Source of the DNA: Pseudomonadota bacterium | GTDB taxonomy: Bacteria; Desulfobacterota; Desulfobulbia; Desulfobulbales; CALZHT01 | Direction: 5' to 3' | Length of the DNA stretch: 54,873 nt | Assembly: GCA_018823135.1 (NCBI GenBank) | Contig: JAHJJF010000084.1 | Coordinates: 1-54,873 of the forward strand | Part shown: positions 570-18,840 of the stretch, in pieces | Position numbering within the stretch: position 1 is the stretch's first letter | How the letters are laid out: every line of letters starts with the position of its first letter | Made by a program: the position numbers and the translations under genes | The notes under the pieces: model-generated | Database searches by the model: none | Told to the model about the DNA's origin: nothing | The model's input: only the letters and a program-made list of their open reading frames with translations

Positions 570-1475
570 ATGGACCCTGTGAAATTCATCATACTCGGCA
601 ACGCCCGAACCGGTTCGAATCTCCTGGTAGACCAGCTCAAGGCCTGCCCTGAAGTCCGCGTGCTCGGCGAATTATTTAATCTCAACAGCTTGAAAAAAGT
701 GCTTCAGATTCGGTTTCTTGATAATCCGCTGCAATACCTTGAGGATCAACTGGCTCTCGCTGCTAATGATTCCATCAAAACCATCGGATTCAAGATTTTC
801 TACTATCATGCCACCACGGGGCAACTCTTGCCGGGAAATTATCCGGACAAAAACATTGAATATGCCCCGCCGCATCTGAAAAAAAGGATCAACCGACTCC
901 ATGATCTTCTCCGGGAAAAATATAATCTGGAAGAACTTGGCCCCAAAATCCAGGGAGTTTGGGCGTATCTCAAAAATGATCCCGAACTCAAAGTGATTCA
1001 TCTGAAAAGAAAGAATAAGCTTGCGACGTTTTTATCGCTCAGGCGCGCCTTTATGACCGATGAGTGGACAAAACCCAAAGGGGTAAAAGCACGGGCCATC
1101 AAAGCGATTAAAGACATACCAAGAAAGATTTCCGGGGCGGGGGAGATTAATAGCGGCAAATCATCCCGAGAGCCGGTATATCTCTCATATGAGGATTGCC
1201 TTGAGGCCTTTGAAAGGAGCACCGCCTGGGAACAGGAGTATGACGAGTTTTTCAAGGATCATGCCAAAACAGATATTCTTTACGAAAATATCAAATCAGA
1301 TCCCAGGGTGGAGATGGAAAAGATTTATTCATTGCTTGGGCTTGAAGGCGAGGTGGAACTATCCGATTCTCTTGCAAAACAGAACCGTAAGCCCCTGTCG
1401 GAATCCATTGCCAATTATCAGGAACTCAAAAACCGATTTGCACAGACCCCTTGGCAGGAGTTTTTTATTGATTAG
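570..1475 (+). CDS. P-loop sulfotransferase (NodH/Stf0-like)
   Basis: A 301-residue cytosolic protein that should transfer sulfate from PAPS to a hydroxyl or amino group. The 5'-phosphosulfate-binding loop is at residues 10-19 (GNARTGSNLL), right at the N terminus as in NodH and Stf0 sulfotransferases, and a 3'-phosphate-binding type segment follows near residues 143-162 (HLKRKNKLATFLSLRRAF). Length fits the family. The start ATG at 570 is followed immediately by the conserved N-terminal strand, although no good Shine-Dalgarno precedes it, so translation may be coupled to the flavoprotein ending at 556. It converges with the secreted beta-helix gene on the other strand (20 bp between stops). 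In bacteria such enzymes sulfate trehalose lipids, Nod factors or LPS sugars; the acceptor here is unknown, and the neighbouring glycan operon is a natural candidate. Confidence 0.85.
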   Translation: MDPVKFIILGNARTGSNLLVDQLKACPEVRVLGELFNLNSLKKVLQIRFLDNPLQYLEDQLALAANDSIKTIGFKIFYYHATTGQLLPGNYPDKNIEYAPPHLKKRINRLHDLLREKYNLEELGPKIQGVWAYLKNDPELKVIHLKRKNKLATFLSLRRAFMTDEWTKPKGVKARAIKAIKDIPRKISGAGEINSGKSSREPVYLSYEDCLEAFERSTAWEQEYDEFFKDHAKTDILYENIKSDPRVEMEKIYSLLGLEGEVELSDSLAKQNRKPLSESIANYQELKNRFAQTPWQEFFID

Positions 1476-1495
1476 CGAGGTCTGGTGCTTGATCT

Positions 1496-3124
1496 TCAAT
1501 CAACCTTGATTTTGGATTTACCTTTAAGCTCTGCCCCGGTCAAATCCGCAGGATTGGTATATTTTCCGCCCCATTTATAGAAATATTGGCCGCCTTTTGT
1601 GGTAATTGAATTTTCCTTAATTGTGATTCCCTGATTGTCATTCCATTGCTCTGTTTCATCGGAGACATAAACCTGAGACAGCTGGGAATCATGGATGGAA
1701 TTTTTTTCGATAGCCGGTTTGACGGCAGCCTCGAGAAGCACGCCAACCTTGCAGTTTTCTATGGTATTCGAAGTCATCATCGTCTCAATGGGGGCATTGT
1801 CTTTACCCTGTCTGGAATTTACCGTCCCTATCTTTATTCCTGCACCGGATTCTTTGACCGTGTTGTTTTCGACTTTTACATAATTGGATTTATTTTCGAC
1901 AAATATCCCGGCCTTGCCCACTCGTGAAATAGTGTTGTTTGCAATTATACCATGGGAGGAGCCGACATCGAACCAGATGCCGTTGATATTCTCAGCATAA
2001 TCAACTATACAGTTTTCGACTTTAGCGCCGCGGGTGGCCATGATCTTGATGGCAGCGGATCGAGATCCACCGCCGCCCTGGATCGGCGGATAGTGGTTGT
2101 ACATCCATTTGAAAGTGGTATCGGTTATGTGGATATCGTCGTTTTTCCCTTCAATCAAATCCTGTTTGTTGCCTCGGTAGGCGGCGATTCCCTGATCAAA
2201 GCATTCGATAAATCGGCAATTGGATATTGTTACGTAATCAATCTGTACGAGCACCACCGGTCTGTAGCATTTTTCAAATGTGCAGTTTTTAATTTGAATT
2301 TGTGAACGGAAATATTGATTTTTCGTGTCCCATTGAGCAAAAAAGATGCCGCCGCCGGCCTCGACCTTGTCGAGTTCAACAAACGAAACCCCGGTGTAAC
2401 CGTAAAAATGCAATCCGTCGATGATAATTCCCCTGAAGACCTTTGAGCCGCTCTCAATAATTGCCGTTGCCAAAACCCCGACTTCAAATGTGTAATTATT
2501 TGCATCAAAGCCTTTATTATCAATATCTCTGGGAAAAACAGAGAGAGTGCCGTGTTGTGAATCAAAAAACCATTCTCCCGGTTCATTTACTTCCGATAAG
2601 GAAATTTCCTGGTGCGGCGGTATGGGGGTTGCCCCTATGGGATCGGCTTTGAGGAAATCCCCCATTTCTTGGCCATTGCTGTTCTGGATCAGGATACGAG
2701 GCTGGAATCTGTTTTTGTTGCTTTTTTTTTTGGAAAAGTTTTTAGCATCATCCCATATATTTCTTTGCCAGAGGGTCTTGCCGTTATTGTCATATTTCTG
2801 CCAGCCGCCGTTGATCGCAACGGTTCCGGTAAGCACTACTTTTTCGTCTTTGTAATTTCTGATGGTGATCGGCTGTTCATGGCTGCCGGTGATTTTGAGT
2901 CTTACGGATTCACGATACACTCCTTCACGGATATTCAAGATGTCCCCTGGACGGAGTTTCTTGACACCTTTGGATATTGTCTTCCATGGATGGATTATGG
3001 TGCCGGCTCCGGCCTTATCGTTTCCCTGGGGGGATACGAAAAATTCCTGTGCAAAAGCTTGTGCGCTGAACAGCAGGAAAATTATGATGAGCAGTAGTAA
3101 TAATGGTATTTTGATCAGCTTCAT
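1496..3124 (-). CDS. secreted right-handed parallel beta-helix protein (DUF1565/pectate-lyase-like fold)
   Basis: I place the start at the ATG at 3124, not at an ATG 102 bp further upstream, because it gives a clean signal peptide (MKLIKIPLLLLLIIIFLLFSAQ, cleavage after AFAQ) and its ATG overlaps the TGA of the upstream glycosyltransferase. The mature N terminus (FVSPQGNDKAGAGT...PWKTI, then PGDILNIREGVYRESV) is the typical opening of DUF1565/NosD-like right-handed beta-helix proteins. Many repeated I-x-N / N-x-I rungs follow (residues about 200-480). The protein is 542 residues and predicted to be exported to the periplasm or surface. Family members include polysaccharide lyases, C5-epimerases and non-catalytic glycan-binding proteins; no specific catalytic set is evident. 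As the last gene of a glycosyltransferase operon it probably processes or binds the polymer made there. Confidence 0.8.
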   Translation of the reverse strand: MKLIKIPLLLLLIIIFLLFSAQAFAQEFFVSPQGNDKAGAGTIIHPWKTISKGVKKLRPGDILNIREGVYRESVRLKITGSHEQPITIRNYKDEKVVLTGTVAINGGWQKYDNNGKTLWQRNIWDDAKNFSKKKSNKNRFQPRILIQNSNGQEMGDFLKADPIGATPIPPHQEISLSEVNEPGEWFFDSQHGTLSVFPRDIDNKGFDANNYTFEVGVLATAIIESGSKVFRGIIIDGLHFYGYTGVSFVELDKVEAGGGIFFAQWDTKNQYFRSQIQIKNCTFEKCYRPVVLVQIDYVTISNCRFIECFDQGIAAYRGNKQDLIEGKNDDIHITDTTFKWMYNHYPPIQGGGGSRSAAIKIMATRGAKVENCIVDYAENINGIWFDVGSSHGIIANNTISRVGKAGIFVENKSNYVKVENNTVKESGAGIKIGTVNSRQGKDNAPIETMMTSNTIENCKVGVLLEAAVKPAIEKNSIHDSQLSQVYVSDETEQWNDNQGITIKENSITTKGGQYFYKWGGKYTNPADLTGAELKGKSKIKVD

Positions 3125-3876
3125 GGTGTTAATCGTTCCCGCAAGACTCTTAAAATGAATACTGTGTTTCCGACCACATAGCGCTTGAACATTCTTTTCG
3201 GTTCCTGAAGAAGGCGATAGAGCCATTCAAGGCCGGCATCTCCCATCCATTTTGGACATCTTTGTTTGGTGCCTGATAAATATTCAAATGCCGCGCCGCA
3301 GGTTAGTATTATTTTTACATTTAGACGGTCCTCGTTTTCAAGTATCCATTTTTCCTGAAGCGGCATGCCAAGTCCAACAACGAGGATATCCGGGGTCGCC
3401 TGGTTGATTTGTTCCAGTATAGCATGGTTTTCATCTCCCTGTTTTGCAAAATATCCGTGATGCGTGCCGACTATGTTTATTGAGGGATTTTTCTGGCGGA
3501 AGATTTCCGCAGTCATTTGCGCAGCGCCATGAGGCCCGCCTAAAAGAAAAAGGCTGTACCCTTTATCGGTGATGAACTTGGCGAGAGGCAGGCCCCAATC
3601 GGCCCAGGTAAGTCTAGGCGGTATGGCATGCCCGAGGATTCTCGCACCCAGCACCAGGCCTGCGCCGTCCACACGGACAATGTCGGCGCGGTTGAAAAAA
3701 TCCTTGAGCCACGGAAGTTTTGCGGCAAGATTCATGCTGTGGACGTTGCCGGACAAGACAAACCCTTTGTCGTTTCTGGCAATGATTTCGGCGATTCCGG
3801 CGTGAAGTTCACTAAGGGTGGCCGGGGTTATCGAACTTCCTGCAATATCGACTTTTTTGAGGGGCGAAGGGTTCAT
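3121..3876 (-). CDS. WecG/TagA/CpsF-family glycosyltransferase (GT26)
   Basis: A 251-residue GT26 enzyme that adds a ManNAc-type sugar to an undecaprenyl-linked acceptor at the inner face of the membrane. Diagnostic segments are the N-terminal GNVHSMNLA strand, VRVDGAGLVL (residues about 68-77, containing the conserved Asp proposed as catalytic base in TagA), the LFLLGG loop, the PDILVVGLGMPLQEKW segment and the GAAFEYLSGTKQRCPKWM motif near residue 200, ending with the basic C-terminal tail (EPKRMFKRY) that anchors these enzymes to the membrane. Translation is coupled on both sides: its ATG overlaps the TAA of the upstream beta-propeller gene by one base, and its TGA overlaps the ATG of the beta-helix gene. 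This identifies the operon as making a polymer or glycolipid on a lipid carrier. Exact donor sugar is unknown. Confidence 0.92.
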   Translation of the reverse strand: MNPSPLKKVDIAGSSITPATLSELHAGIAEIIARNDKGFVLSGNVHSMNLAAKLPWLKDFFNRADIVRVDGAGLVLGARILGHAIPPRLTWADWGLPLAKFITDKGYSLFLLGGPHGAAQMTAEIFRQKNPSINIVGTHHGYFAKQGDENHAILEQINQATPDILVVGLGMPLQEKWILENEDRLNVKIILTCGAAFEYLSGTKQRCPKWMGDAGLEWLYRLLQEPKRMFKRYVVGNTVFILRVLRERLTP

Positions 3877-5174
3877 TATCCGATTGAATCCAGAAATTCT
3901 TTCATGGAGAGGACATAACTTTGCCGTTTGCCGCTGTGGGTCGAGTCGATGGAAATGAAGTTGTTGTCCTGGCTCCAGCGGGGATGGAGGTCGCAGCGGT
4001 TGTACTCATAATAGTTCCACGGAGTAAAAAAAGTGCCTACAAGATGCGATTTATTTTTTTCCAGATCATAAATTACCAATCGCTGATTCCTTGCTTTATC
4101 CGGATAGGTGTCGGTGAGCAGGAACCGGCCGTCAGTGGAAACCGAGCAATGGCCGTCACCGAAGTGTTCGAGAACATTTTCGCCGATAATTGATATATCC
4201 CCATTGGTTGCATTGACCCGGTAATATTTGTCGCCATGCTCATGGGTTCTTGCCCAGGCGACGAGAGTATCATCATCCAGCCAGTGATAATGGGAAACCA
4301 TGCGGGCGTTCAACAATAGTTTGAGGCAGCTACCGTCATTATTTGCCGCATACAGCCTTGAGAAACGGCCTTGGGGGTTATAATACCGATGCAGGAAAAC
4401 AAATCTCTCGCCATTGGAGGAATAGATCAGGTGATTCACCTTGTGGTCGGCTTCGAACATCTCGGGAACCGGATGGAGCCCCATAAGTTGCTTTAATGAA
4501 ATGATCAGATGACCGATGCCGGTCTTGAGATTTATCCGCCATACACCGTCTTTTTCAGCATCCATTTTTCCTGTAAAATTATTTACTTCAGGGGCATATC
4601 CATAACAATCCCGGATCAGAAAGAGGCGTTTGTAATTGATGGACAGGGCTTCGGGTTTCCGGGGACTGAGCGCCTGAATCGGCCAGGGGATGAACTGCTC
4701 GTAAGTTGAACCTGGACGGATGATTTTCATTCCCAGGATGCCTTCGTTGATCACGTTGAACACCACGCACTGTTCCTGTTCCTGGTCGATTGTTGCCCAT
4801 TGCGCCATTGCCCCTTGCTGCCAGTTCCAGGAAAGAGTGGTTCCCAGTTTTGCTGGGGCAGCCTTACCCTTTTCAAGAACTATAACTTCCAGTTTGCCTT
4901 TCTGCCAATGGTGGAGAAGCATTTTTTGCATATCGTCCGACCAGGGGGATTTGTCGTAATAGCCGTAGAAATATTCACCGGGGATTGGTTCGATTCTCGC
5001 CCACTCAAAGGCTGATTGTAACTTCACCAGCGGCTGCAGCCTGAATTGGAAGCCTCTTTTTCGATAAAAAACGTAGGTGAGGCGTTTATAGGATTCTTTT
5101 ACAACAATGCGAAGCAATGGAAAATTCTCCAGCACTTTTGCAATTATCCTTTCGATTTTTGAATAGCCGCCCAT
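3876..5174 (-). CDS. beta-propeller protein of unknown function in glycan operon
   Basis: I do not recognise a named family for this 432-residue protein. There is no clear signal peptide. An N-terminal basic amphipathic segment (residues about 5-45) is followed by repeated blade-like elements of the TolB/WD40-like kind, for example YSSNGERFVFLH, VSTDGRFLLTD and the C-terminal HPRWSQDNNFISIDS, each a strand-turn-strand with polar turn, typical of six- or seven-bladed propellers. Similar standalone propellers occur in O-antigen and exopolysaccharide loci. The start at 5174 has an upstream AAGGA about 9 nt away. It is the first gene after the MITE-like element at 5212-5354, so its transcription relative to the upstream glycosyltransferases could be modulated by that insert. 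Possible roles are glycan binding or a lyase-like activity (oligogalacturonate lyases are propellers), with no catalytic residues identified. Confidence 0.7.
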   Translation of the reverse strand: MGGYSKIERIIAKVLENFPLLRIVVKESYKRLTYVFYRKRGFQFRLQPLVKLQSAFEWARIEPIPGEYFYGYYDKSPWSDDMQKMLLHHWQKGKLEVIVLEKGKAAPAKLGTTLSWNWQQGAMAQWATIDQEQEQCVVFNVINEGILGMKIIRPGSTYEQFIPWPIQALSPRKPEALSINYKRLFLIRDCYGYAPEVNNFTGKMDAEKDGVWRINLKTGIGHLIISLKQLMGLHPVPEMFEADHKVNHLIYSSNGERFVFLHRYYNPQGRFSRLYAANNDGSCLKLLLNARMVSHYHWLDDDTLVAWARTHEHGDKYYRVNATNGDISIIGENVLEHFGDGHCSVSTDGRFLLTDTYPDKARNQRLVIYDLEKNKSHLVGTFFTPWNYYEYNRCDLHPRWSQDNNFISIDSTHSGKRQSYVLSMKEFLDSIG

Positions 5175-5210
5175 AAGCCAGCGTCCTTCTGATTTTTGAG
5201 GCTGATTAAC

Positions 5211-5355: not shown

Positions 5356-5356
5356 A

Positions 5357-6238
5357 CTACTCATCTTTTGTCCGAAACTGGGCGATTTCTGAAATCAGTT
5401 TTCCCGCAACAAGAAGGGAGAGAAACGATAACCGCCGGAAGATATTTCTTTTTTTTGTTGCTGCCCAGGCGGTTTTCAGGGTTTTTGCCAATCCCCATTT
5501 TCTTGTTTCCGTATTAAACGACCCCTTCTCGAATTTCTGTTTCAAGAGCCCTCTGGCAACGCCCGCCTTCCAGCGCACCCCAATATACCCTTTGAGGGTT
5601 TGGGGCCAGTGATGATAGTTTAGCGCATCTTCGGCATAGATAATCAACATATTATTGCGCAGCAGCTGGTGGCCGAAGTTACGGTCTTCCCCCCTTGTCA
5701 GGGATGTATCAAAAAAAATTCCATGGTTTTTTACCGGATTCATTTTGAAGGCAAGATTCATGCTGCAGATCATTGAGGGCGACTTGACGACATTGCCGTC
5801 TCTATCGCGAAGTTTGGGCATATCCTGGCTGATGAATTGCACGAGAGAAGCATACAGATTTTCAGGAAATAAATTATCTGTTCTGCCTTGAACTGCAACA
5901 GCTTGAGGATTTCTCAGGAAAGTTTGGTCAATTGTGTTGAGCCAGTGGGGATCTGCCACGGCATCATCATCAATAAATGCCAGTATTTCCCCCTTGCACT
6001 CTGTCAAAGCGGCGTTTCTGGCAGAGCTGATGCCGATTTTATCTTCAAAAACGTATTGTATGGGAAAATGTTGCGCCATCTGCTCGACTACTTTTTGGGT
6101 ATCATCAGTCGATGCATTATCGATGATGAGGATTTCATCGGCCGGGCGTGTCTGGGCGGCAAGACTGTCCAGGGCTTTTTTCAGCAATGGCGCCCGGTTT
6201 CGGGTTATGATGGCAACGGTGATGGAACTTTTGTTCAT
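5357..6238 (-). CDS. family 2 glycosyltransferase
   Basis: A 293-residue inverting GT-A enzyme. The N terminus (ITVAIITRNRAPLLKKALDSL) and the first Asp region (DEILIIDNASTDDT, residues 35-47) bind the nucleotide sugar; the metal-binding DxD-type triplet is AFIDDDA (Asp 90-92). The C-terminal half contains TRGEDRNFGHQL, corresponding to the (Q/R)xxRW/ED acceptor-side base region of GT2 enzymes, and a basic amphipathic tail (KKRNIFRRL) that could sit on the membrane. The ATG overlaps the TGA of the GT4 gene (ATGA), so the two glycosyltransferases are translationally coupled. Its TAG lies two bases from the MITE-like element. Sugar donor and acceptor are unknown; probable function is extending a lipid-linked oligosaccharide. 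Confidence 0.93.
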   Translation of the reverse strand: MNKSSITVAIITRNRAPLLKKALDSLAAQTRPADEILIIDNASTDDTQKVVEQMAQHFPIQYVFEDKIGISSARNAALTECKGEILAFIDDDAVADPHWLNTIDQTFLRNPQAVAVQGRTDNLFPENLYASLVQFISQDMPKLRDRDGNVVKSPSMICSMNLAFKMNPVKNHGIFFDTSLTRGEDRNFGHQLLRNNMLIIYAEDALNYHHWPQTLKGYIGVRWKAGVARGLLKQKFEKGSFNTETRKWGLAKTLKTAWAATKKRNIFRRLSFLSLLVAGKLISEIAQFRTKDE

Positions 6239-7365
6239 TTTTTGTGTTTCTTGATCTGTTCCTTATACGTATCTTCAAGGATTTTTGTCTGTTTTTTCAG
6301 GTCGAATAATTCTAAGGCCCTTTTTCTGCCGATGACGCTCAATCTCTGCCACAGATCATTATTATCAAAGAGCCGCATGATTTTTTCTGCAAGTTCATGA
6401 CTGTTTTTTGGTTTTGCAAGGCAATCGGCCAAATCTTCACCCAATGCTTCCCGGACAGGAGCTACATCGAATAAAGCCATGGGAAGCCCCATGGCCATTG
6501 CTTCCTGCACAAAGGTCGGTAAACCTTCCCACAGGCTCGGAACGCTCAGGACGGTTGCTTTATTCATCCATTCTTTTACCACATCATGGGGTTGTGTTCC
6601 CAGAAATTCGATGTTTTTCAGAGAGATCTGCGTCTGTTTCTCGAGAGTTTGACGATACGGTCCGTCACCGATCACCACAAGTCGAATGTCCGGCCTGAGT
6701 TTCTGGATTTCCGCCATGGCTTCAATCAAATACTGGCAGCCTTTGAATTCTTCCAGGCGGCTCACAAAAAGGACAACGGGTTCCCGCTGGATGGTCTGAT
6801 CGGGTTTGAATTGGTCAAGATCGATGCCGATATAATGGACAAGGATTTTTCCTTCGGGATATCCCTGAGCCAGAAGCCCTTGTTTCACGGAGTTTGATAC
6901 AGCAATGAAAAGGTCGGCGGTATGGATGAGTCTGGCACGTCTCCGAAGGTATATTTTAAAGGTGATTCTTTTCTGCTTTCTTTTCCACTCATCCGAAGTG
7001 TATGCGTCGGTGCCGTGAAAGGTGACGATCAGCGGGATTCTTTTGTTTTTATGGAGCGGCAGATAGAGGGTTGCGTCCTTTCCCATATGCACATGAACAA
7101 GGCGGGGATTTATTTCATTGATTTTTTTTTCAAGATACGGCGCAAAACCAAAAAGCTTATACATTGCCTCGCGGATAAGGCCCAGAGCTGTGCCGTTATT
7201 TAATAAAAAAACTTGATTATTTGGCAGCTCCAACCCGGGTACTCGCCGGGAGCCTATAAAATACGGCGTGAATTTCCTGAGCGTTCCGGCCTGGTTTCTG
7301 ATGAAGGTTTCGGATGGTGGGAGGATAAGATCCCTGTAAATGATGATGGATTCCAGCGCAGTCAT
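6235..7365 (-). CDS. family 4 glycosyltransferase (GT-B)
   Basis: A 376-residue retaining glycosyltransferase. The N-terminal Rossmann half contains LVHVHMG (residues 89-95) and VTFHGTDAY (114-122); the C-terminal donor-binding half starts at VVLFVSRLEEFKGCQYLIEAM and contains VIGDGP (231-236) and the EX7E motif PSLWEGLPTFVQEAM with Glu280 and Glu288. These are the standard GT4 donor-sugar contacts. The gene starts 4 bp after the stop of the upstream deacetylase-like gene and overlaps the following GT2 gene by 4 bp, so the block behaves as one transcription unit. The N-terminal YRDLILPPSETFIRNQ sequence is typical of colanic-acid/exopolysaccharide GT4 enzymes. Substrate specificity cannot be read from sequence. 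Confidence 0.94.
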   Translation of the reverse strand: MTALESIIIYRDLILPPSETFIRNQAGTLRKFTPYFIGSRRVPGLELPNNQVFLLNNGTALGLIREAMYKLFGFAPYLEKKINEINPRLVHVHMGKDATLYLPLHKNKRIPLIVTFHGTDAYTSDEWKRKQKRITFKIYLRRRARLIHTADLFIAVSNSVKQGLLAQGYPEGKILVHYIGIDLDQFKPDQTIQREPVVLFVSRLEEFKGCQYLIEAMAEIQKLRPDIRLVVIGDGPYRQTLEKQTQISLKNIEFLGTQPHDVVKEWMNKATVLSVPSLWEGLPTFVQEAMAMGLPMALFDVAPVREALGEDLADCLAKPKNSHELAEKIMRLFDNNDLWQRLSVIGRKRALELFDLKKQTKILEDTYKEQIKKHKK

Positions 7366-8694: not shown

Positions 8695-8973
8695 TCATAA
8701 ATGTCTGGAAAGAAAATCAGCAACATATCGTACTTGAATGTCTTCCAGAATTGAGCCGTCTTCAGCAATGAAGAGCTCCTGAAAGGGGATATCATGCCGG
8801 CCGAAATGTTGATTGATTGCACCGACCAGTCGGATAAAATCAAGAGATCGGAGCTGGAGATCGCCCCCCAGATACGTATCAGCAGTAATATTGTGAACAG
8901 GCTGGCCGGATTGGCTCGCCATCTCAGTTATAATTGTAATGAGTTCATTGGTAATATCGTTGCTGGCAGTCAT
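8695..8973 (-). CDS. acyl carrier protein, stand-alone
   Basis: A 92-residue four-helix carrier protein, first gene of the minus-strand glycan operon. The phosphopantetheine site is GGDLQLRSLDFIRLV with Ser43; the usual Asp before the Ser (DSL) is Arg42 here, an uncommon substitution. The rest follows the ACP pattern: helix 1 (residues 6-20), the loop with ADTYLGGDL, helix 2 after the Ser, and helix 3/4 (ILEDIQVRYVADFL). Start ATG 8973 is preceded by AAGGAACC. The gene is divergent from the KS-AT-ACP-ACP-KR-DH synthase, separated by about 430 bp. It is an obvious candidate to serve in trans for the downstream KS-AT protein, which has no ACP of its own, or to deliver an acyl chain to the glycan. 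A role in general fatty-acid synthesis is less likely given the context. Confidence 0.9.
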   Translation of the reverse strand: MTASNDITNELITIITEMASQSGQPVHNITADTYLGGDLQLRSLDFIRLVGAINQHFGRHDIPFQELFIAEDGSILEDIQVRYVADFLSRHL

Positions 8974-9404
8974 TTTGGTTCCTTTATAATCGGTAAAAAT
9001 CAGAGTCAGAGTTAATCGAAACGTCAGCCAGGATATATGCCGGATAGATTTTATCTGCAGGATCTTTCGTCATATTTCAAGCAATATGCGGGTGTTGTCC
9101 TGGATATTTACCAAATTAACGGGTTTATTTGGCTTGACATTTCGACTGTTTTTTTATCATTAATGACGCATATGATTAGTTAAATCGTTCGTGAATTGGA
9201 AGTCAAATCCAAGGATAATGTAACAGTTTTTTCCCTTATAATTTCTGCATTTTCTATACTGAAAGGAAAACGTTAGGAAGTTACACTGAACAGAAAGAAT
9301 ATCAATAGAAATTTATTAATGATTTGTTGATTTGTTTTACTGGCACTACGAATGATATGAAAGCGGCAAGAGGATTTTTTTTACTTTGAGTGCATGGAGT
9401 TACA
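8974..9404. other. divergent intergenic region, ACP operon / lipid synthase
   Basis: About 430 bp, AT-rich, without a credible gene: short minus-strand ORFs here have no SD or family features. Transcription must start in both directions from it. The only decent sigma70-like element I see is listed separately. A TGGCAC at about 9342 lacks the downstream TTGC element of a sigma54 promoter. Its length leaves room for a regulator or a long 5' leader. Confidence 0.6.
9134..9160 (+). promoter_or_regulatory. possible sigma70 promoter for the lipid synthase genes
   Basis: TTGACA at 9134-9139 and TATCAT at 9155-9160, with a 15-bp spacer that is shorter than ideal. It would give an untranslated leader of about 240 nt before the ATG at 9405. 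Low confidence because the spacer is short and AT-rich sequence offers many partial matches. Confidence 0.3.
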
Positions 9405-12400
9405 ATGACTGAAAAGAAACAGATAGAATTATCAGAAAAATTGAACAGCAAACCTTCTGATATCGCAATCATCGGCATGTCCTGCCTCTTGCCCAACGCT
9501 GCCGATCTGCCTCAGTATTGGGATAATATCATTTACAAGGTAAACAGTCTTCGTGAGATCCCCGCCGACCGCTGGGATTGGCGGGAATTTTACAATGCTG
9601 ATTCTGGAGACGAGCACTCGATCAATTCAAAATGGGGCGGTTTTATTGATCCGCAGCCTTTTGACCCGGCCGAATTCGGCATGCCGCCAAACAGTGTCCA
9701 GTCGGTGGAACCCCTGCAATTACTCACCCTGGCCACTGCGCAAGCGGCCCTTAAAGATGCCGGATATCTTGATAAAACGTTTCCCCGGGAGACAACCTCG
9801 GTGATACTGGGTATTGGCAGCGGTATTGCCGATCTTGCCCTGCAATATAGTTTCAAAGCCCATGCCCGTATGTTTTTCAAGGATGTTTCGGGGATCGACC
9901 AGAATCTGCCGAAATGGACCGAGGATTCCTATCCAGGCATATTGCCCAATGTGACTGCCGGTCGTATTGCAAATCGTCTGGATCTTGGTGGGGTGAATTT
10001 TGTAGTGGATGCCGCCTGCGGATCATCCCTCGGGGCGATTTATCAGGGAGTAAAGGAGCTTGAGACCGGCACCAGCGACATGGTGATTACCGGCGGTGCT
10101 GAAGGGAGTCAGAACCCGTTTGCTTATTTCTGTTTCAGTAAAACCCATGCCCTGTCTTCAACCGGCGAATGTCGGGTCTTTGATCAGGGCGCAGACGGCA
10201 CGGTTTTGAGCGAAGGAATTGTCATTGTCATCCTCAAACGGCTTGACGATGCTGTCCGTGATCATGATCGAATCTACGCCGTGATAAAATCCGTTGCCGG
10301 ATCCAGCGACGGCAAGGATAGGGGCTTGACGGCTCCCCGTCCCGAAGGTCAGCACCGGGCGTTGGAACGGGCTTACGCTAAATCCGGCGTTGATCCCGAT
10401 GATATCGGTCTGATTGAAGCACACGGCACCGGTACGGTGGTTGGTGATCGCATTGAAATAGAATCCCTCAGCCGGATATTTACCCAAAAGGAGAATCAAC
10501 CGCCGAAACATGCCATCGGCTCGGTCAAATCCCAGATCGGTCACTCCAAGGGGGCGGCCGGTGCGGCCGGACTGGTCAAGGCGGCCCTGGCGCTTTATCA
10601 CAAAGTGCTGCCGCCCACCGCCAATGTGAAGTCGCCAAACCGGGCCCTTGAAAATACCTCCCTCTACGTCAATTCTCAAACCAGGCCATGGATTCATTCC
10701 AGGGATACGGTGGGACGTTGCGCCTCGGTCAGCGCATTCGGGTTCGGCGGCACGAATTTTCATGCAGTTCTTGAGGAATTTACTGCTGCTGAGAATTTCA
10801 AAGAGGCGCCGGTAAACAGGTGGCCGGAGGAGTTGTTTGTCTGGCGGGGTGAGAATCCTGCTGCAATACAAAAGAAGCTGCAGGGGTATGTGATAACGCT
10901 GCAGAATGCCGGGCCGCCAAGCCTGCTTGAACTTTCCTGTAAATTATGGGATGAGGCAAGGGCTTTTTCCGGAAAAACCCTGGCGATTGTTGCATCATCC
11001 AAAGAAGACCTCAGGAACAAGATTCTTAAATTCATCCGTAAAGCCGATGAGGCCGGCACCGGGAATCCTCTGGCCATCAATGACAGCCTTGGGATTTTTT
11101 ATAACGATGAACCGCTTCTCGATACAGGAAAAGTCGCGTATCTGTTTCCCGGGCAGGGCGCGCAATATCCCGGCATGCTTAATGATCTTGCCGTGCATTT
11201 TTCTGAGGTGCGTATAGGTTTTGAGATTGCTGACCGGATACTTTCCGGGAAATATGATCAACCTTTGAGCGCCACAATATTTCCGCCGCCTTTTTTTACT
11301 CCCGGGCAGGAGGAGGCAGCTAAAAAGCAACTCAGCCGGACCCATACAACCCAGCCAGCGGTGGGTGCCGCAAGCCTGGGAATCTGCAATTTACTTGATT
11401 CCCTGGGTATCCGGCCGGAGCTTGTCTGCGGCCACAGCTATGGCGAACTTTCAGCGTTGCGGCAGGCAGGGGCCATAACTGTGGAAGATTTTTTTACCCT
11501 TTCCGAAATACGCGGCAGGTTGCTTGCCGAGGCAGGGAAAGAGAATCCCGGCGCCATGGCGGCAATTGATACGGAAGAAGAAATTGTTAAACCGATGCTT
11601 AGCGAGTACGTCGAATTATGGATTGCAAACTGTAATTCGCCAAAACAGACGGTTGTTTCCGGCAATATCGGAGAAATAGAAGCATTTGTCGAAAAAGCAA
11701 GGGCCGCAGGCTTTCGCGCCACCCGTCTTCCGGTTTCAGGTGCATTTCACACGCCCTTTCTCTCCACAGTTAAGGAGGCGTTTTCCGCAGTTTTACAGGA
11801 TACTGATTTTTCCACAGGCACGGTCCCGGTCTACTCAAATACCAGAGCTGAACAATATCCCGGAGACCCTGCTGCAATGCGTGAGGTGCTTGCCGGGCAG
11901 ATCATCAATCCGGTGCGCTTCATTGAGGAGATTCGGGCCATGTATGAGGCCGGGGCACGGGTATTTATCGAGGCAGGACCCCGCAATATTCTCGGCACAC
12001 TTGTTACGCAGATTTTAGCGGATTTTCCCCATGCGGTAATCACCCTGGATAATCCCGGCGAACACGGGGTACGGCAATTATTGCTCGGTCTCGGGAGTCT
12101 GGCCGCCCAGGGAGTGAATGTCAACTTTGATCGATTATTTGCGGGAAGGATCCCAGTAGGGGAAAAGGATGGAAGAGCCACATCCTCTGTAAAGAAGAAA
12201 GCCAGTTCCACCAAAATCATGCTGAAGCTGGGGAAGACCTGGCCATCAGCCGAGTCGCGCAGCAGTGTAGCAAACAAGGCTGCGCAATCTGCTCTTGAAA
12301 GAATCCAAAAGAATCCTGCCATGGAAATGTTTGCAGCAGGCCGCGGGGCAGCACATATCGGCGACGGAGATATGGACGGAGTGATCATCCAGTATCAGAA

Positions 12401-15400
12401 GAGCATGCAGCGCTTTCTCGACATGCAGCGCGAAATAATGCTCACTTACCTGGAAGGCGCTCCCCCTGAGGGGGCGGCAAAATCTCAGGCCCTTAAACAG
12501 AATGGTGCGGGGGCAAATATTGTTGTGCCTTCTCCGGAACCAGTCCCGAAAGCACCGCAACCATTGACAGTCGGGCTTAATGCCGAGGTTTTGAAAGAGA
12601 AGATCCTTGCCCTGGTCAGCGACCGTACCGGGTATCCCCGTGATATGCTTGACCCGGATGCTGACATGGAAGCGGATATGGGGATTGATTCCATCAAGCG
12701 TGTGGAGATCCTGGGGGCCATTCAAAAGGAACATCTTTCCCAATACGATGAGCCCAATGCCCGGCAGACTCAGGATTTGGCCGAACGAAAAACCCTGCAG
12801 GGGATTATTGACTGGCTCATCGATTTTATCAGTTCCCAACAGGGGGTGGCGGAAGTTTCTCAACCAGTTCAGCAAAAAGCCGCCGGCCCTGACGTGAAAT
12901 CCCGGATTCTCAATATTGTCAGTGATCGGACCGGGTATCCCCTTGATATGCTTGATCCGGCTGCGGACATGGAAGCGGACATGGGGATTGACTCCATCAA
13001 GCGCGTGGAAATTCTTGGGGCGCTGCAAAAGGAACTCCTCTCGCAATACGATGAGCCAAATGCCGGGCAGACCCAGGATTTGGGCGGCCGGAAAACCCTG
13101 CAGGGCATAGTTGACTGGGTGGTGGAATTTACCGGGGCAATCCAGCCTGGGGCAGGCGAGCCGGTAATCCCTCAACACACGAAAATCCTACAACCGGAAA
13201 AACTTGAAGTTCCTTTGCAGGCAGAGGATCTCATCTTGCCGCGCTACGAGGTGCGGATCTCTGAAATGCCTTTTCAGGAGGACGCGAAAGAGGTTCTGCC
13301 GGCAAAAGGGGTGGTTGTCATAACCGACGATGAGCAGGGCCTGGCAAGGGAAATCCAGGGAATTCTACAAAACAAAGGTTTGAGCACGGTGCTTCTTCGA
13401 CTGAGTGAAGCCGAGGAAAGCAGCGCTGAAAATGAGCTTTGCTGCCGTTTTGATTCCTTTGAAGGGGCAAGCAAAGCAATTGGCACCATCCGTAAAAAAT
13501 ACGGACCGATCAGCGGCTTAATCCACCTTGCAGGGTTGCGGGAGATGATGCCCTACGATAAGTTGACCCTGAGCGAATGGCAGAAGAGGCTCAGGGAGGA
13601 TGTGAAAAGTCTCTTCTATCTTATCAAGGCATCGGCTGCTGACCTGCAGGTCCAAGCGGAAACCGACCGGGCATGGATTGCCGGGATCACCAATCTTGGC
13701 GGTACGTTTACCCTTGAAGACCTGATCAGCGAATCGACCTTTAATCCCGGTCACGGCGGAATTGCCGGAATGCTAAAAGCCCTTCAGCGGGAATGGCCGG
13801 TTGCCACCTGCAAGGCCATTGATTTTGATCCGGTTCTCGACCAATCTTTTGTCGCCCAACAGATTGTCCGTGAGCTTACTTCGCTGGAATGGGATGTGGA
13901 GGTGGGATTCAGGGAAGAAAAAAGGCTTGTGGTGCGGGTTATTCCCACTCCGTTGATGGATGATCCTGAGAAACCAGCTCCACTTGCCAAGGATGATATT
14001 GTCGTGATAACCGGCGGCGCCCGGGGGATTACCGCGGAAATCGCCATTGAAATCGCTGAGCAGTATCAGTCGACCCTCTTGCTTCTCGGACGCTCTGCCC
14101 CCATTGAGCCGGAATCAGAGGATACGGTGGATTTATCCGATCACAAAGAGATCCGTGCCGCTCTATTTAAGAAAATGCAGGTAAAGGATAGTTCTGTAAA
14201 ACCAGCGGATGTGGAAAGGGTCTTTAAGCAGATTCTAAGAACTCGAGAGATGTCGGCAAATTTCAGGGCCATGGAAAAAGCGGGCTCCATCGTGCGATAT
14301 TTTCAGGCGGATGCCTGCGATGAACCGGCAATGACCCGGACCCTTGAGAAGATTTACAACGAATACGGCAGGATTGATGCATTTGTCCACGGCGCGGGAA
14401 TTATCGAGGATGCATTTATTGAGTCCAAGTCGCCGGAGTCCTTCGAGCGGGTGTTTGATACCAAGGCGGAGAGTATTTTTATATTGGAAAGATTGCTCCG
14501 CGGCGAGACTCTGAAACTCATGGTGCTTTTTGCCTCGGTGGTCGGTCGTTTCGGGAATGCCGGACAATTGGATTATGCGGCCACCAATGAGGTAATGAAC
14601 AAGGTTGCCTGCCGTCTGAACCGAAGATGGCCGGGAAGGATTCTCTCCATTGACTGGGGGCCGTGGGCCGATGCCGGCATGGCTTCCCCTGAAGTTCAGG
14701 CGCAGCTCAGAGAGCGTGGCATCAAACTCGTTGATCCGCCAAGAGGCCGGTACATGTTTGAGCGGGAAATCCGCCTGGGCCGCAAAGAGGATGTTGAAAT
14801 TGTCATCGGCGGCGGACTCTGGGGTTCAAAGGACGAAGAAATCAGGCTCACCGACCAGGACGTTCTGCCATTGCTTGATGGCGATCCTCCCGGACTTGTC
14901 GGTCATGAAGTCTGGCACTATAACGAGATCATTGATCTGCCTCGGCATCCCTATCTCCTTTCCCATCTCATGGCGAGCAAACCGGTGATCCCGGTGGCAA
15001 TCATCATAGAATTGATGGCGGAGATCATTAAATACGGCTGGAATGATTGGATTGTCACCGGCCTTGAAGACCTGCGGATCATCAAGGGAATCATTATTTA
15101 TCCGGGGCGGACCGGCATCAGAATTACCGTGTATCCCACTGAATCACAGGCGTTGAAAGCCGGAACAAGAGTAGTGGAAGCCAGAGCCTTTCAGGCGGAC
15201 AATCCCAAGTTCCCGACCCATATGGCGAAATTCACCCTGGCGCATCAATTGCCGGATTCGCCGCGCTATGATCCTGAAACACTGGGTGAATTGGAAGCTT
15301 ATCCGCTTTCCATTGAAGACTGCTACGACCAGCTGCTTTTTCATGGCCCGAAACTTCAGCATGTCGAGGAAGTCCTGGGAATCGGTGAAAATGCCATTCG

Positions 15401-15779
15401 CAGCCGCATGAGAATTTCAGATCCTAAAGAATTTCTTGACCGATTCGTGGAACACGGCTGGATAATCGATCCGGTAATCATTGATTGCCTTTCCCAGCAG
15501 ATTAACTTCTGGACCAGGGCGAAGCTGGGCTCTTCAAGCTTTCCCACGAACCTTGGCAGTTGCCGTCTGTTTAATGCGTCGCCGGCTGAACAGCTTTTTT
15601 GCGATACGCGAATCACCAGAGTCAGCAGCGGCGGCAGTCTGGTTGTGGCGGATATCCGGTTGTGGAACGATAAGCACGAGACCGTGATGCTTGTCGAAAA
15701 CATGGAGTTTTCAAGCAGTGAGAAATTGAATTACCTGCACAAGGAAGAATTGAGATCGGAGATGATTCTAGATGATTGA
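9405..15779 (+). CDS. PfaA/HglE-type iterative lipid (polyketide) synthase, KS-AT-ACP-ACP-KR-DH
   Basis: A 2124-residue multidomain synthase. ATG 9405 is preferred over GTG 9390 because GGAG (9396-9399) lies 5 nt upstream. Domains: ketosynthase (about 20-475) with Cys205 in DAACGSS, EAHGTGT and GHSKGAAG; acyltransferase (about 575-870) with Ser678 in GHSYGE, Arg703, and His782 in GAFHTPF, consistent with malonyl loading; a helical segment MQRFLDMQREIMLTYL; two ACPs with LGIDSIKRVEI-type sites (MGIDSIKRVEI, Ser1096 and Ser1197); ketoreductase with VITGGARGIT and Tyr1724 in GQLDYAATN; C-terminal dehydratase with His1854 in LSHLMASKPVIP and Asp2027 in DPVIID. This order is that of PfaA of polyunsaturated fatty-acid synthases and of HglE-type glycolipid synthases. 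No enoyl reductase or phosphopantetheinyl transferase is seen in the window. Product is probably a long hydroxylated or unsaturated acyl chain. Confidence 0.93.
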   Translation: MTEKKQIELSEKLNSKPSDIAIIGMSCLLPNAADLPQYWDNIIYKVNSLREIPADRWDWREFYNADSGDEHSINSKWGGFIDPQPFDPAEFGMPPNSVQSVEPLQLLTLATAQAALKDAGYLDKTFPRETTSVILGIGSGIADLALQYSFKAHARMFFKDVSGIDQNLPKWTEDSYPGILPNVTAGRIANRLDLGGVNFVVDAACGSSLGAIYQGVKELETGTSDMVITGGAEGSQNPFAYFCFSKTHALSSTGECRVFDQGADGTVLSEGIVIVILKRLDDAVRDHDRIYAVIKSVAGSSDGKDRGLTAPRPEGQHRALERAYAKSGVDPDDIGLIEAHGTGTVVGDRIEIESLSRIFTQKENQPPKHAIGSVKSQIGHSKGAAGAAGLVKAALALYHKVLPPTANVKSPNRALENTSLYVNSQTRPWIHSRDTVGRCASVSAFGFGGTNFHAVLEEFTAAENFKEAPVNRWPEELFVWRGENPAAIQKKLQGYVITLQNAGPPSLLELSCKLWDEARAFSGKTLAIVASSKEDLRNKILKFIRKADEAGTGNPLAINDSLGIFYNDEPLLDTGKVAYLFPGQGAQYPGMLNDLAVHFSEVRIGFEIADRILSGKYDQPLSATIFPPPFFTPGQEEAAKKQLSRTHTTQPAVGAASLGICNLLDSLGIRPELVCGHSYGELSALRQAGAITVEDFFTLSEIRGRLLAEAGKENPGAMAAIDTEEEIVKPMLSEYVELWIANCNSPKQTVVSGNIGEIEAFVEKARAAGFRATRLPVSGAFHTPFLSTVKEAFSAVLQDTDFSTGTVPVYSNTRAEQYPGDPAAMREVLAGQIINPVRFIEEIRAMYEAGARVFIEAGPRNILGTLVTQILADFPHAVITLDNPGEHGVRQLLLGLGSLAAQGVNVNFDRLFAGRIPVGEKDGRATSSVKKKASSTKIMLKLGKTWPSAESRSSVANKAAQSALERIQKNPAMEMFAAGRGAAHIGDGDMDGVIIQYQKSMQRFLDMQREIMLTYLEGAPPEGAAKSQALKQNGAGANIVVPSPEPVPKAPQPLTVGLNAEVLKEKILALVSDRTGYPRDMLDPDADMEADMGIDSIKRVEILGAIQKEHLSQYDEPNARQTQDLAERKTLQGIIDWLIDFISSQQGVAEVSQPVQQKAAGPDVKSRILNIVSDRTGYPLDMLDPAADMEADMGIDSIKRVEILGALQKELLSQYDEPNAGQTQDLGGRKTLQGIVDWVVEFTGAIQPGAGEPVIPQHTKILQPEKLEVPLQAEDLILPRYEVRISEMPFQEDAKEVLPAKGVVVITDDEQGLAREIQGILQNKGLSTVLLRLSEAEESSAENELCCRFDSFEGASKAIGTIRKKYGPISGLIHLAGLREMMPYDKLTLSEWQKRLREDVKSLFYLIKASAADLQVQAETDRAWIAGITNLGGTFTLEDLISESTFNPGHGGIAGMLKALQREWPVATCKAIDFDPVLDQSFVAQQIVRELTSLEWDVEVGFREEKRLVVRVIPTPLMDDPEKPAPLAKDDIVVITGGARGITAEIAIEIAEQYQSTLLLLGRSAPIEPESEDTVDLSDHKEIRAALFKKMQVKDSSVKPADVERVFKQILRTREMSANFRAMEKAGSIVRYFQADACDEPAMTRTLEKIYNEYGRIDAFVHGAGIIEDAFIESKSPESFERVFDTKAESIFILERLLRGETLKLMVLFASVVGRFGNAGQLDYAATNEVMNKVACRLNRRWPGRILSIDWGPWADAGMASPEVQAQLRERGIKLVDPPRGRYMFEREIRLGRKEDVEIVIGGGLWGSKDEEIRLTDQDVLPLLDGDPPGLVGHEVWHYNEIIDLPRHPYLLSHLMASKPVIPVAIIIELMAEIIKYGWNDWIVTGLEDLRIIKGIIIYPGRTGIRITVYPTESQALKAGTRVVEARAFQADNPKFPTHMAKFTLAHQLPDSPRYDPETLGELEAYPLSIEDCYDQLLFHGPKLQHVEEVLGIGENAIRSRMRISDPKEFLDRFVEHGWIIDPVIIDCLSQQINFWTRAKLGSSSFPTNLGSCRLFNASPAEQLFCDTRITRVSSGGSLVVADIRLWNDKHETVMLVENMEFSSSEKLNYLHKEELRSEMILDD
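12603..13110 (+). repeat. tandem duplication encoding two ACP domains
   Basis: Two copies offset by exactly 303 bp within the synthase gene (around 12603-12807 and 12906-13110). The block around the pantetheine site is strongly conserved at DNA level (for example GACATGGAAGCGGA in both copies, differing mainly at third positions), which indicates a fairly recent duplication or ongoing gene conversion. Tandem ACPs raise flux in PUFA-type synthases. Confidence 0.75.
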
Positions 15780-18700
15780 GCCGCAAGATATAGCAATAAT
15801 CGGCGCAGCCGGTGTTTATCCGAAAGCAGGGAACTTCAGGCAATTCTGGCGCAATATCCTCAACAAGGTGGATGCGATCACCGATGCCCCGGAAGAGTGG
15901 TTGCGGGAAGACCTCTATGATCCGAATTCAAGCGAGTTTCATCATGTGTATACGATTCGCGGCGGCTTCATCAACGATTATACCGATTTTGATCCAACCG
16001 AGTTCGGGGTGCTGCCCAACTCCCTGGAAGGGACTGATCCGGAACAGTTTCTGCCCTTAAACGTTGCCAAGGCGGCGCTGATCGATGCCGGATATTTTGA
16101 ACGGGATTTCAACCGCGCACGCACCGGGGTGATATTAGGCCGTCAGACCCTTTTTCACCGGGCCAACTGCACCTATCTTCAGCAGGCCCATGGGGTGGGG
16201 CAAACCATTAAGGTTATTAAAGCGCTGCTCCCGGAAACCCCGGACTCGCTTCTTAATACTCTGGAACAGAAATTACGCGCCAGCATTCCGAAGGTCACCC
16301 CTGATAACTGCAGTATTGCCGCCCCCAGTCTGATCACCGGGCGCATTGCCAACCGCCTTGATCTGCAGGGCCCTAATTACGGGATTGACGCGGCCTGCGC
16401 CTCGTCGCTCATTGCAATGGATCAGGCAATCCTTGAACTTCAACGCAACCGCTGCGATATGGTGATCAGCGGCGGTCTCCAGGCCAGCAGTCCGTATGCG
16501 GTTTTTATCGTTTTCTGCCAGCTGAGCGCTTTGACGAGAAAAGCTTCGCTGCGTCCCTTCGGGGTTGGCGCGGACGGGACGCTGCTTGGCGAAGGCATGG
16601 GCATGGTGGTTCTTAAAAGACTGAGCGATGCGGAGCGGGACCATGACCATATCTATGCAGTGATAAAAAGTGTGGGCTCGTCAAGCGACGGCAAAGGCTT
16701 GGGTGTGCTGGTGCCACGCTTTGAAGGACAGCTCCTGTCCCTTGAACGGGCTTATGAGTCACCGGACCTTGATCCGCAAACCGTCGGGCTTATCGAAGCA
16801 CATGGAACCGGCACTCCGGTTGGAGACGAAACAGAAATCCGCACGCTCAAACATTTTTTCGGGGAAAGAAAAGGCGAAATGCCTCATATGGCGCTTGGCT
16901 CTGTGAAATCGATGATCGGCCATAGTATGGCCGCGGCAGGCGCCGCCAGTGTGATCAAAAGCATGATGGCCCTGTATCATAAAGTTTTGCCGCCAACGTT
17001 GTGTGACGAGCCCGATGCAAAATTTGAATTTCCAAAAAGCACGATGTATGTGAACACTCAGGTCCGACCCTGGATTCACGGATTGGAAACTCCAAGACGA
17101 GCCGGAATCAATGCCTTCGGGTTCGGTGGAATCAATGCCCACCTGGTGCTTGAGGAATACCTGGGAAATTCCAATAACGATAAGCAGATTCCCATTCCCT
17201 TGGAATGGCCATCGGAACTGGTTTGCCTTAAGGCATCAAGCCGTGATCAATTACTGAAAGATATTGAGCGGTTGCTCGTGTATCTTATTGAAAATAATGA
17301 TAAAAGTCTTGCTGATATTTCCTATACAATGAACTGCGATCAGTCTGGAACAGGAGATAAAATCCTTTCTGTTATTGCTCCAACGATTGATGGACTTCTC
17401 GATAAACTGACTTCAGCAAAGGAACAACTCGAACAATCAGATAAAACCATTTATGATCCGCGCGGCATTTTTTATTTTGCCGACCCTCTGGGGAAAAAGG
17501 GCAAGATTGCAATACTCTTTCCCGGGCAGGGCGCCTCTTACGTCAACATGCTTTCCGAGCTCTGTATGCATTTTCCGCCGGTCAGGGAATACTTTGACAA
17601 GGCGGATCGGATATATGTAAAGCACGGGTTTAGTACACCGTTGAGTCGGGTTCTGTACCCGCCGCCAGCGCATTCCATTGAAGATAAAGAAGCGCCGGGG
17701 CGTTTGATGTTTTTGCGGCATTACAATAATTCCGCCCTGTGGAGCGCTAACTCCGCATACTATTATCTAACAACAAAACTGGGTATTACAGCTGAGCTTT
17801 TTGCCGGGCACAGCACCGGGGATTTTAACGCTCTGATTGCCGCAGGCGCAATTCCTCCTGAAGCGGAAAACTTTATCGTTGATTTGGAACTGGACTTTAA
17901 TGACCACGTGAAGGCATACGCTGAAAAACTTCCAAAGGTGAAAACGCTCACTGTCGGAGGGATTCTGCCGGAAGAAATCATAAAAGTGGCAAAAGAATCC
18001 AAGGGAGAAGTCCAGGTGGCCCTTGACAATTGCCCCAACCAGATTTTTCTCTGCGGCAGTGCGTCCGGGATTGTCCGCGCGCAGGAAAAACTTGTATCCA
18101 AGGGGGCGATCTGTCTGCCGGTGGCAATTAATCAACCATTTCATACAAGCTGGTACGAACCGCTTTTTAAACCATTACGCGAAAAATTTTCAGATATCCC
18201 CACTCAGAAAGCTCATGCAAAGATTTATTCAAGCGCCCTTGCATCAGACTATCCTGCAGATCCCGAAGAGATCCGCGATCTTTTCTTAAAACAGTGGATG
18301 ATGCCGGTGCGGTTCCGTGAAACCATTGAAAAGATGTATGCCGATGGTGCACGGGTATTCCTGGAAGTTGGGCCGAACAGCAATTTATGCGGTTTTGTCC
18401 GGGACACGTTGGGAAAAGCCGAACATATTGCCGTACCACTTAATATGCAGGGTAAAAGCGATCTCAATCAGCTTAATCTTGCTTTGGGAACCTTGGCCGC
18501 CCACGGGATAGACTTGGATTTGGCTTATCTCTATGAGGGAAGGGAGGCAAAGGCTTTGCCGATCTTTCGTGAAATACAAACAGGTCAAGATACTGCTCTA
18601 CCTAAAAAGAGCCGGGCGGTGAAATTAAATCAGGGGCTTCCCGTACTCAACCTGGATGAGGAAACAGTGCAACTCTTCAGGAGAACAATTCGAGCATCTT

Positions 18701-18840
18701 CAAGCGGTGTTGGGGATGAACTTCCCTCAGGAAAAAAGGAGGACGCAATGTCTTCATTCATGCAGACCATGGACCAATTTCTTTCCCAGCAGCATGAAGT
18801 CATGACCCGCTATCTTGCAAAGAAAAAATCGAAGCCTTAA
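15772..18840 (+). CDS. PfaB/PfaC/HglC-like ketosynthase-acyltransferase, KS-AT
   Basis: A 1022-residue partner subunit whose ATG lies 8 nt inside the previous gene (ATGATTGA), so the two are made together. The KS (about 1-465) is complete: Cys209 in DAACASS, EAHGTGT and GHSMAAAG, so it is not a chain-length-factor type dead KS. The AT (about 580-900) has the nucleophile Ser681 in GHSTGD and catalytic His791 in QPFHTSW, but the Arg that binds the malonyl carboxylate in AT domains is missing (Glu706 at the aligned position; no Arg nearby). It may therefore load a non-carboxylated acyl group or a starter. The protein ends with FMQTMDQFLSQQHEVMTRYL, the same post-AT helix that precedes the ACPs in the partner, and has no ACP. 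It should act with the partner's ACPs or the ACP encoded at 8695-8973. Confidence 0.9.
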   Translation: MIEPQDIAIIGAAGVYPKAGNFRQFWRNILNKVDAITDAPEEWLREDLYDPNSSEFHHVYTIRGGFINDYTDFDPTEFGVLPNSLEGTDPEQFLPLNVAKAALIDAGYFERDFNRARTGVILGRQTLFHRANCTYLQQAHGVGQTIKVIKALLPETPDSLLNTLEQKLRASIPKVTPDNCSIAAPSLITGRIANRLDLQGPNYGIDAACASSLIAMDQAILELQRNRCDMVISGGLQASSPYAVFIVFCQLSALTRKASLRPFGVGADGTLLGEGMGMVVLKRLSDAERDHDHIYAVIKSVGSSSDGKGLGVLVPRFEGQLLSLERAYESPDLDPQTVGLIEAHGTGTPVGDETEIRTLKHFFGERKGEMPHMALGSVKSMIGHSMAAAGAASVIKSMMALYHKVLPPTLCDEPDAKFEFPKSTMYVNTQVRPWIHGLETPRRAGINAFGFGGINAHLVLEEYLGNSNNDKQIPIPLEWPSELVCLKASSRDQLLKDIERLLVYLIENNDKSLADISYTMNCDQSGTGDKILSVIAPTIDGLLDKLTSAKEQLEQSDKTIYDPRGIFYFADPLGKKGKIAILFPGQGASYVNMLSELCMHFPPVREYFDKADRIYVKHGFSTPLSRVLYPPPAHSIEDKEAPGRLMFLRHYNNSALWSANSAYYYLTTKLGITAELFAGHSTGDFNALIAAGAIPPEAENFIVDLELDFNDHVKAYAEKLPKVKTLTVGGILPEEIIKVAKESKGEVQVALDNCPNQIFLCGSASGIVRAQEKLVSKGAICLPVAINQPFHTSWYEPLFKPLREKFSDIPTQKAHAKIYSSALASDYPADPEEIRDLFLKQWMMPVRFRETIEKMYADGARVFLEVGPNSNLCGFVRDTLGKAEHIAVPLNMQGKSDLNQLNLALGTLAAHGIDLDLAYLYEGREAKALPIFREIQTGQDTALPKKSRAVKLNQGLPVLNLDEETVQLFRRTIRASSSGVGDELPSGKKEDAMSSFMQTMDQFLSQQHEVMTRYLAKKKSKP

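Follow-up and report, generated by a model that had tools for sequence, protein, structure and literature searches.

A two-ketosynthase secondary lipid synthase, its stand-alone acyl carrier protein and a divergent glycan gene run in a Desulfobulbales genome: a probable lipid unit and a possible link to a surface sugar

The 54,873-nucleotide (nt) stretch of DNA analysed here, referred to as the window, lies at the beginning of contig JAHJJF010000084.1 (C84) of assembly GCA_018823135.1, the roughly 95% complete genome of a bacterium of the order Desulfobulbales. It carries two adjacent genes for a Pfa-type lipid synthase, built from ketosynthase (KS), acyltransferase (AT), acyl carrier protein (ACP), ketoreductase (KR) and dehydratase (DH) domains, and, divergent from this pair, a seven-gene run on the minus strand that extends from 8973 to 1496 in the order acp-dac427-GT4-GT2-prop432-WecG-beta-helix. 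The relationship between the synthase, the stand-alone ACP that heads this run and the glycan-type genes behind it is the subject of this report. The features concerned are as follows.

9390-15779, plus strand: PfaA-like synthase, KS-AT-ACP-ACP-KR-DH, 2129 amino acids (aa), without a fused enoyl reductase (ER) (Pfam, NCBIfam, motifs)
15772-18840, plus strand: ks2, the second synthase protein, KS-AT, 1022 aa (Pfam, NCBIfam, motifs, tree clade)
8974-9389, no strand: intergenic region shared by the divergent ACP and PfaA-like genes, 33% GC (sequence reading)
8695-8973, minus strand: stand-alone acyl carrier protein, 92 aa, first gene of the glycan run (Pfam; ACP profiles and tree)
7370-8653, minus strand: dac427, deacetylase-fold protein (fold match to polysaccharide deacetylases)
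6235-7365, minus strand: GT4-type glycosyltransferase (Pfam/NCBIfam)
5357-6238, minus strand: GT2-type glycosyltransferase (Pfam/NCBIfam)
3876-5174, minus strand: prop432, beta-propeller protein, nearest fold PL22 oligogalacturonate lyase (structure model)
3121-3876, minus strand: WecG/TagA/CpsF-type glycosyltransferase (PF03808, 197.7 bits)
1496-3226, minus strand: exported right-handed beta-helix protein (PF13229, sequence reading)

An earlier note on this DNA had described the KS-AT-ACP-ACP-KR-DH and KS-AT genes as divergent from an ACP-led run of seven genes, and scans against Pfam and NCBIfam, together with motif reading, confirmed both the open reading frames and their domains. In the PfaA-like protein, the KS occupies residues 24-413, the AT 584-876, the KR 1538-1761 and the DH about 1841-2112, with the two ACPs marked by GIDSIK at residues 1098 and 1199, whilst ks2 consists of one KS and one AT, the same scans finding no chain-length factor (CLF), ACP or DH on it. 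The catalytic motifs of both KS domains, the first AT (AT1), both ACPs, the KR and the DH are intact: KS1 and KS2 each keep the Cys-His-His residues, and AT1 reads GHSYGE and has the malonyl-binding Gln and Arg. The second AT (AT2) lacks these Arg and Gln residues in the window and in six relatives, whereas AT1 of the window and of two related genomes, G188 and G010, keeps them. The same loss characterises PfaB, a demonstrated terminal acyltransferase for which off-loading to a soluble ACP is one possible role named by its authors (PMC12895367). Because the loss of Arg and Gln matches PfaB, the analogy suggests that AT2 may likewise be a terminal acyltransferase, handling the finished chain.

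The PfaA-like protein also exceeds the cut-off of the PfaA model TIGR02813 (1159.7 bits against 1010.1), a point in favour of an incomplete or decaying Pfa system for eicosapentaenoic or docosahexaenoic acid (EPA/DHA). Such a reading is very improbable: the window holds no PfaC-type KS-CLF-DH-DH protein, the other KS matches genome-wide sitting in open frames of at most 472 aa; the genome has no match to the PfaD model TIGR02814; the motifs are intact; and KS1 groups in a tree with ER-fused synthases that possess two KS proteins, a tree that left the window's closest relatives unresolved. An N-terminal ER is absent from the PfaA-like gene, and none was found across the approximately 95% complete genome (best E 0.0055 over 198 aa). 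The missing PfaD and fused-type ER led to rejection of a full EPA/DHA system encoded outside the window. The earlier view of a secondary lipid synthase distinct from the standard EPA/DHA type thus holds, with a single phosphopantetheinyl transferase (PPTase) in the genome, on contig C13.

Sequence comparison places the synthase pair in a widespread two-KS branch of the Pfa-type secondary lipid synthases. The hallmark of this family, a PfaA-like KS-AT-ACP-KR(-DH) protein adjacent to a second KS-AT protein, is present in the window, and relatives occur in four genomes of the host order and in many of 80 named loci (L041-L120) from several phyla, the family's taxa including Parvularculaceae, Rhodobacterales-type genera and Gloeobacterales. 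Domains of the relatives were assigned by BLAST against reference pieces, which were anchored by Pfam, and ks2 is about 33-43% identical to its relatives. Their usual plan is an ER-KS-AT-ACPn-KR-DH protein followed by KS-AT, sometimes ACP, and DH-PPTase. Neither the fused ER nor the DH-PPTase tail is universal in the family: the ER is also missing in L046/L162 and is kept in G188 and the locus L042, whilst the tail is missing after ks2 of the window and in both G188 and L042 and is kept in G010. A type II enoyl reductase could act in trans. Several further KS loci were observed during the survey. G010 carries two copies of a two-KS synthase (L035, L034, L151; its contigs C13 and C155/C221), of which C155 and C221 are apparently one KS2-DH-PPTase-ACP locus split by assembly. 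Contig C105 of the host genome holds several KS and small ACP genes (L004, L006-L008, L184, L185, L190), which form a second KS/ACP cluster of type-II-like appearance. Two-KS synthases of Scalindua, Desulfobulbaceae and others (L030, L044, L112, L062, L149, L150) are accompanied by an apparently conserved follow-on gene set of ACP, a PF01663 phosphodiesterase-like protein, an alpha/beta hydrolase, class III CoA-transferases, a methyltransferase and sometimes a B12 radical SAM protein; this set looks like a distinct pathway, of which a limited literature search found no description.

The strongest tie between the synthase and the glycan genes is the stand-alone ACP, whose kinship with the synthase emerges from several comparisons. 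Of the 54 family loci counted, namely KS2-type loci with at least 1.5 kb downstream, at least 34 proved in a profile search to have a stand-alone ACP near KS2, 25 of these ACPs lying within 350 nt of it. A profile of 45 KS2-associated ACPs scored the window ACP at 78 bits, whereas four other small ACPs encoded in the same genome reached 27-38 bits, and the reverse profile, built from those four, gave it only 15 bits. In the ACP tree, in which two rows of the group have long branches, the window clusters with L042, L043 (= G188) and G010 (support 96/88; inner three 98/96), and KS2 trees unite the same members (Shimodaira-Hasegawa (SH)-like 98 in one, SH-aLRT 99 in another, quick tree). These four genomes are recovered together by two separate alignments, good evidence for a shared history of ACP and synthase, and the two are therefore very probably one unit. 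The earlier proposal that the trans ACP belongs to the synthase is in this way borne out by profiles, both trees and proximity counts. Relatives usually place this ACP just after KS2; in the window it instead lies inside the glycan run.

Within that run, acp and dac427 are separated by 41 nt and the remaining genes mostly overlap or are joined by short gaps, with a single gap of 182 nt; the true start of the beta-helix gene is probably an internal ATG closer to the signal peptide. Scans for sigma-70 promoters and terminators returned no more sites than in shuffled sequence, and GC content (50-52% in the synthase genes, 44-50% in the glycan run and 47% in the rest of the window) is uninformative. 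No Wzx or Wzy gene was recognised in the window. The product of dac427 has no Pfam or NCBIfam family match, but its AlphaFold model, of moderate confidence (predicted local distance difference test (pLDDT) 67, predicted template modelling score (pTM) 0.73), aligned best in VIA-align with 3rxz (Z 13.2), then with 4dwe and PdaC, chitin deacetylases following further down; Foldseek alone gave no match under E 0.001. The deacetylase label given by the earlier note is hence plausible for the modelled fold, at that level only, and finds no counterpart in the family databases. The propeller call proved right, the model of prop432 (pLDDT 65) having the PL22 lyase as its nearest fold (E 1.1e-11, TM 0.60-0.68).

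The distribution of the glycan genes in other genomes bears directly on whether lipid and glycan are joined. A search with prop432 across 77 genomes (the host and its relatives; E 1e-10) found no match outside the window, and a wider search at class level was made with a joined acp+dac427+prop432 query. In G098, the order dac427-GT4-GT2-prop432-WecG is kept at 43-66% identity, with a partial dac427 at the contig end, and the module adjoins a sugar transferase resembling WbaP by sequence reading. Partial modules are present in G146, G303, G602 and G410, several of them beside Wzx, O-antigen polymerase or Wza-like genes (labels assigned by eye). In the sister genome G188, a 7-kb contig carries, all in one direction, genes for a glycosyltransferase-like protein, KS2, ACP and a GT4, and a separate contig has dac427 (55% identity) next to a WecG gene. 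In L042, PfaA is followed in the same direction by ACP, a GNAT-type gene, genes for two more proteins, of which one is a PMT-type glycosyltransferase, and KS2.

From these data two readings have to be weighed. According to the first, a lipid-plus-ACP cassette was co-opted for acylating or anchoring a glycan, a working hypothesis for which the chances are judged to be even. According to the second, the synthase and ACP form one unit, the glycan genes belong to a separate exopolysaccharide module that came to lie beside the ACP, and lipid and glycan are never joined; this is a serious contender, albeit one leaning towards the doubtful side. A number of observations weigh against a joined pathway, several of which are those expected of an independent module. 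Twelve genomes hold dac427 or a clear homologue of it, and only those of the window and G188 contain a two-KS synthase; G098, with its whole module, and nine further dac427 genomes lack this synthase type, the loci reading as Wzx/Wzy/Wza-type (G303, G410 and others) among them, and the match in G300 falls with a different KS group in the tree. Nearly all other synthases of the family have no adjoining glycan module, and glycosyltransferases of the window's families occur within about 10 kb of only three of them, L043 (= G188) included. Even in G188, KS2 and dac427 are on different contigs. At class level, the synthase is present in two of five dac427-positive genomes, while 6-14 of 213 genomes overall are guessed to carry it; the nominal 0.006-0.036 for this co-occurrence counts the window itself and is suggestive rather than a test. 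In addition, no acyltransferase able to put the chain on a sugar was recognised in the operon. The independent module, for its part, does not sit easily with an ACP within the run, 41 nt from dac427, rather than in the usual place just after KS2, nor with the mixing of ACP and KS2 with glycosyltransferase-type genes in G188 and L042 of the same small clade. The earlier note had joined lipid to glycan and had set beforehand, as refuting, the occurrence of synthase pairs elsewhere without the glycan operon. Mostly this is what the family presents, the sister G188 being otherwise; the proposed union is favoured by the KS2-ACP of G188 lying between glycosyltransferase genes, and is weakened by the separability of the module.

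Under the hypothesis of a recruited lipid cassette, the position of the ACP at the head of a sugar-polymer operon suggests attachment of the lipid to a surface sugar, and a pathway can be outlined. The PfaA-like protein would use its two internal ACPs to build a chain iteratively from malonyl units, and its domain content, which provides for ketoreduction and dehydration but lacks a dedicated enoyl reductase, would leave that chain probably unsaturated or partly hydroxylated. KS2-AT2 would then finish the chain and move it to the stand-alone ACP, as the features of AT2 and the kinship of the ACP indicate. The chain might subsequently be placed on the polysaccharide-type glycan of the operon or on its lipid-linked precursor, a step read from gene position only, with an amino group freed by the deacetylase-like dac427 as a possible acceptor. 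Acylation of sugars from ACP has precedents in Nod factors (PMC5080398) and in the anchor of the Vi antigen (PMC9597891). A more specific version is speculative and rather unlikely: a lipo-oligosaccharide pathway of Desulfobulbales with Nod-factor-like logic on a type I secondary lipid synthase, in which the PfaB-like AT would hand a polyene or hydroxylated chain, formed with no enoyl reduction, to the ACP for N- or O-acylation of a deacetylated amino sugar within a surface glycan. An alternative connection between chain and sugar is offered by heterocyst glycolipid (Hgl) biosynthesis, in which reduction of the chain yields a fatty alcohol that a glycosyltransferase then links to the sugar. 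The synthases concerned belong to the same broad superfamily, and the final heterocyst glycolipid step is indeed performed by a glycosyltransferase, HglT (PMC11804610). This route is nonetheless improbable here, as neither an HglC-type KS-CLF-AT protein nor a chain-releasing reductase was seen in scans of the window (no search aimed at HglT or HglB was made), and the WecG and deacetylase-like proteins are of polysaccharide types.

The genes flanking the synthase and the glycan run are listed below.

570-1475, plus strand: sulfotransferase-like gene (Pfam; Sulfotransfer_3, 37.7 bits)
1-556, plus strand: CrtI-like FAD enzyme, C-terminal fragment only, truncated by the contig start (partial matches to TIGR02733/TIGR02734)
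19323-22487, plus strand: MlaE, ABC ATPase, MlaD and MlaC lipid-transport genes (family matches)

The sulfotransferase-like gene begins 13 nt after the CrtI-like fragment and is co-directional with it. It runs head-on into the glycan genes and, because of this convergence, constitutes a separate transcription unit; no similar gene was found near related synthases. The sulfotransferase was therefore rejected as a part of the pathway, contrary to the earlier suggestion, and the CrtI-like gene, previously placed within 570-18840, is in fact the fragment at 1-556, outside that range. A distinct, full-length CrtI/carotenoid-isomerase-like FAD enzyme is encoded at 29573-31222. The Mla genes, unmentioned in the earlier note, share the strand of the synthase, an arrangement in keeping with delivery of the chain to the membrane or outer membrane through a downstream Mla-type transporter, unrelated to the glycan. 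This option is very improbable, given that the gap to the synthase measures nearly 500 nt and that no such set is seen beside relatives, for which reason they were also rejected as a conserved part of the pathway. Mla genes generally serve housekeeping lipid transport. The MlaF-type ABC ATPase (20172-21413) has a C-terminal GGDEF match at residues 250-352 (33.8 bits; cut-off 23.8), an odd fusion, and a second lipid-transport set, comprising an HAE3/HpnN-like MMPL transporter, MlaA and MlaC, lies at 45399-49779.

In 2011, Shulse and Allen described 14 additional types of secondary lipid synthase cluster with uncharacterised products (PMC3098273). Most types had no known product at that classification, and the recurring trans ACP points to where the finished chain may leave such a synthase. 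If the link to the glycan is true, it would represent a route that puts Pfa-type chains on surface sugars in anaerobes, beyond the examples of heterocyst glycolipids and phenolic lipids.

Of the classified systems, Type O (PMC3098273) resembles the window in possessing a KS-AT-ACPn-KR-DH protein followed by a KS-AT protein, with a stand-alone ACP nearby. The taxonomic groups of the two-KS family overlap the list of Type O clusters (Dinoroseobacter, Parvularcula, Gloeobacter), and the family is possibly Type O, an equation that rests on organism names. The window copy differs in having neither the fused ER nor the DH-PPTase tail and in its glycan operon. PfaABCD systems for EPA/DHA share the PfaA architecture and, in PfaB, the loss of Arg and Gln seen in AT2, but they differ in their KS-CLF protein, absent from the window, and in PfaD, absent from the genome; moreover, PfaB has a pseudo-KS, whereas KS2 keeps its active-site residues. 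With the Hgl synthases the window has in common the idea of a secondary lipid chain and a glycosyltransferase, although it has no HglC-type KS-CLF-AT and the genome no other large KS protein. The Nod factor pathway (NodC/B/A, NodE/F, NodH; PMC5080398) is similar in bringing together a specialised ACP and KS, a NodB-fold candidate, a GT2 and a sulfotransferase in one region, and in its logic of an ACP-bound unsaturated chain placed on a deacetylated sugar. The differences are that the window has a type I iterative synthase rather than NodE/F, that its sulfotransferase is outside the operon and that dac427 is unrecognised by deacetylase family models; no family match to NodA occurred among the window proteins scanned, the rest of the genome not having been searched. 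Membership of the window system among the Hgl, EPA/DHA or Nod systems is not supported. For lipid A, AcpXL and LpxXL provide another case of an ACP-bound special fatty acid transferred to a sugar. VexE of the Vi antigen (PMC9597891) is alike in placing an ACP-bound special fatty acid on a sugar, and the difference from both is that no homologue of VexE or LpxXL was recognised in the operon. Finally, Wzx/Wzy exopolysaccharide loci resemble the glycan run itself, in that they hold homologues of dac427, GT4, GT2 and WecG in other genomes.

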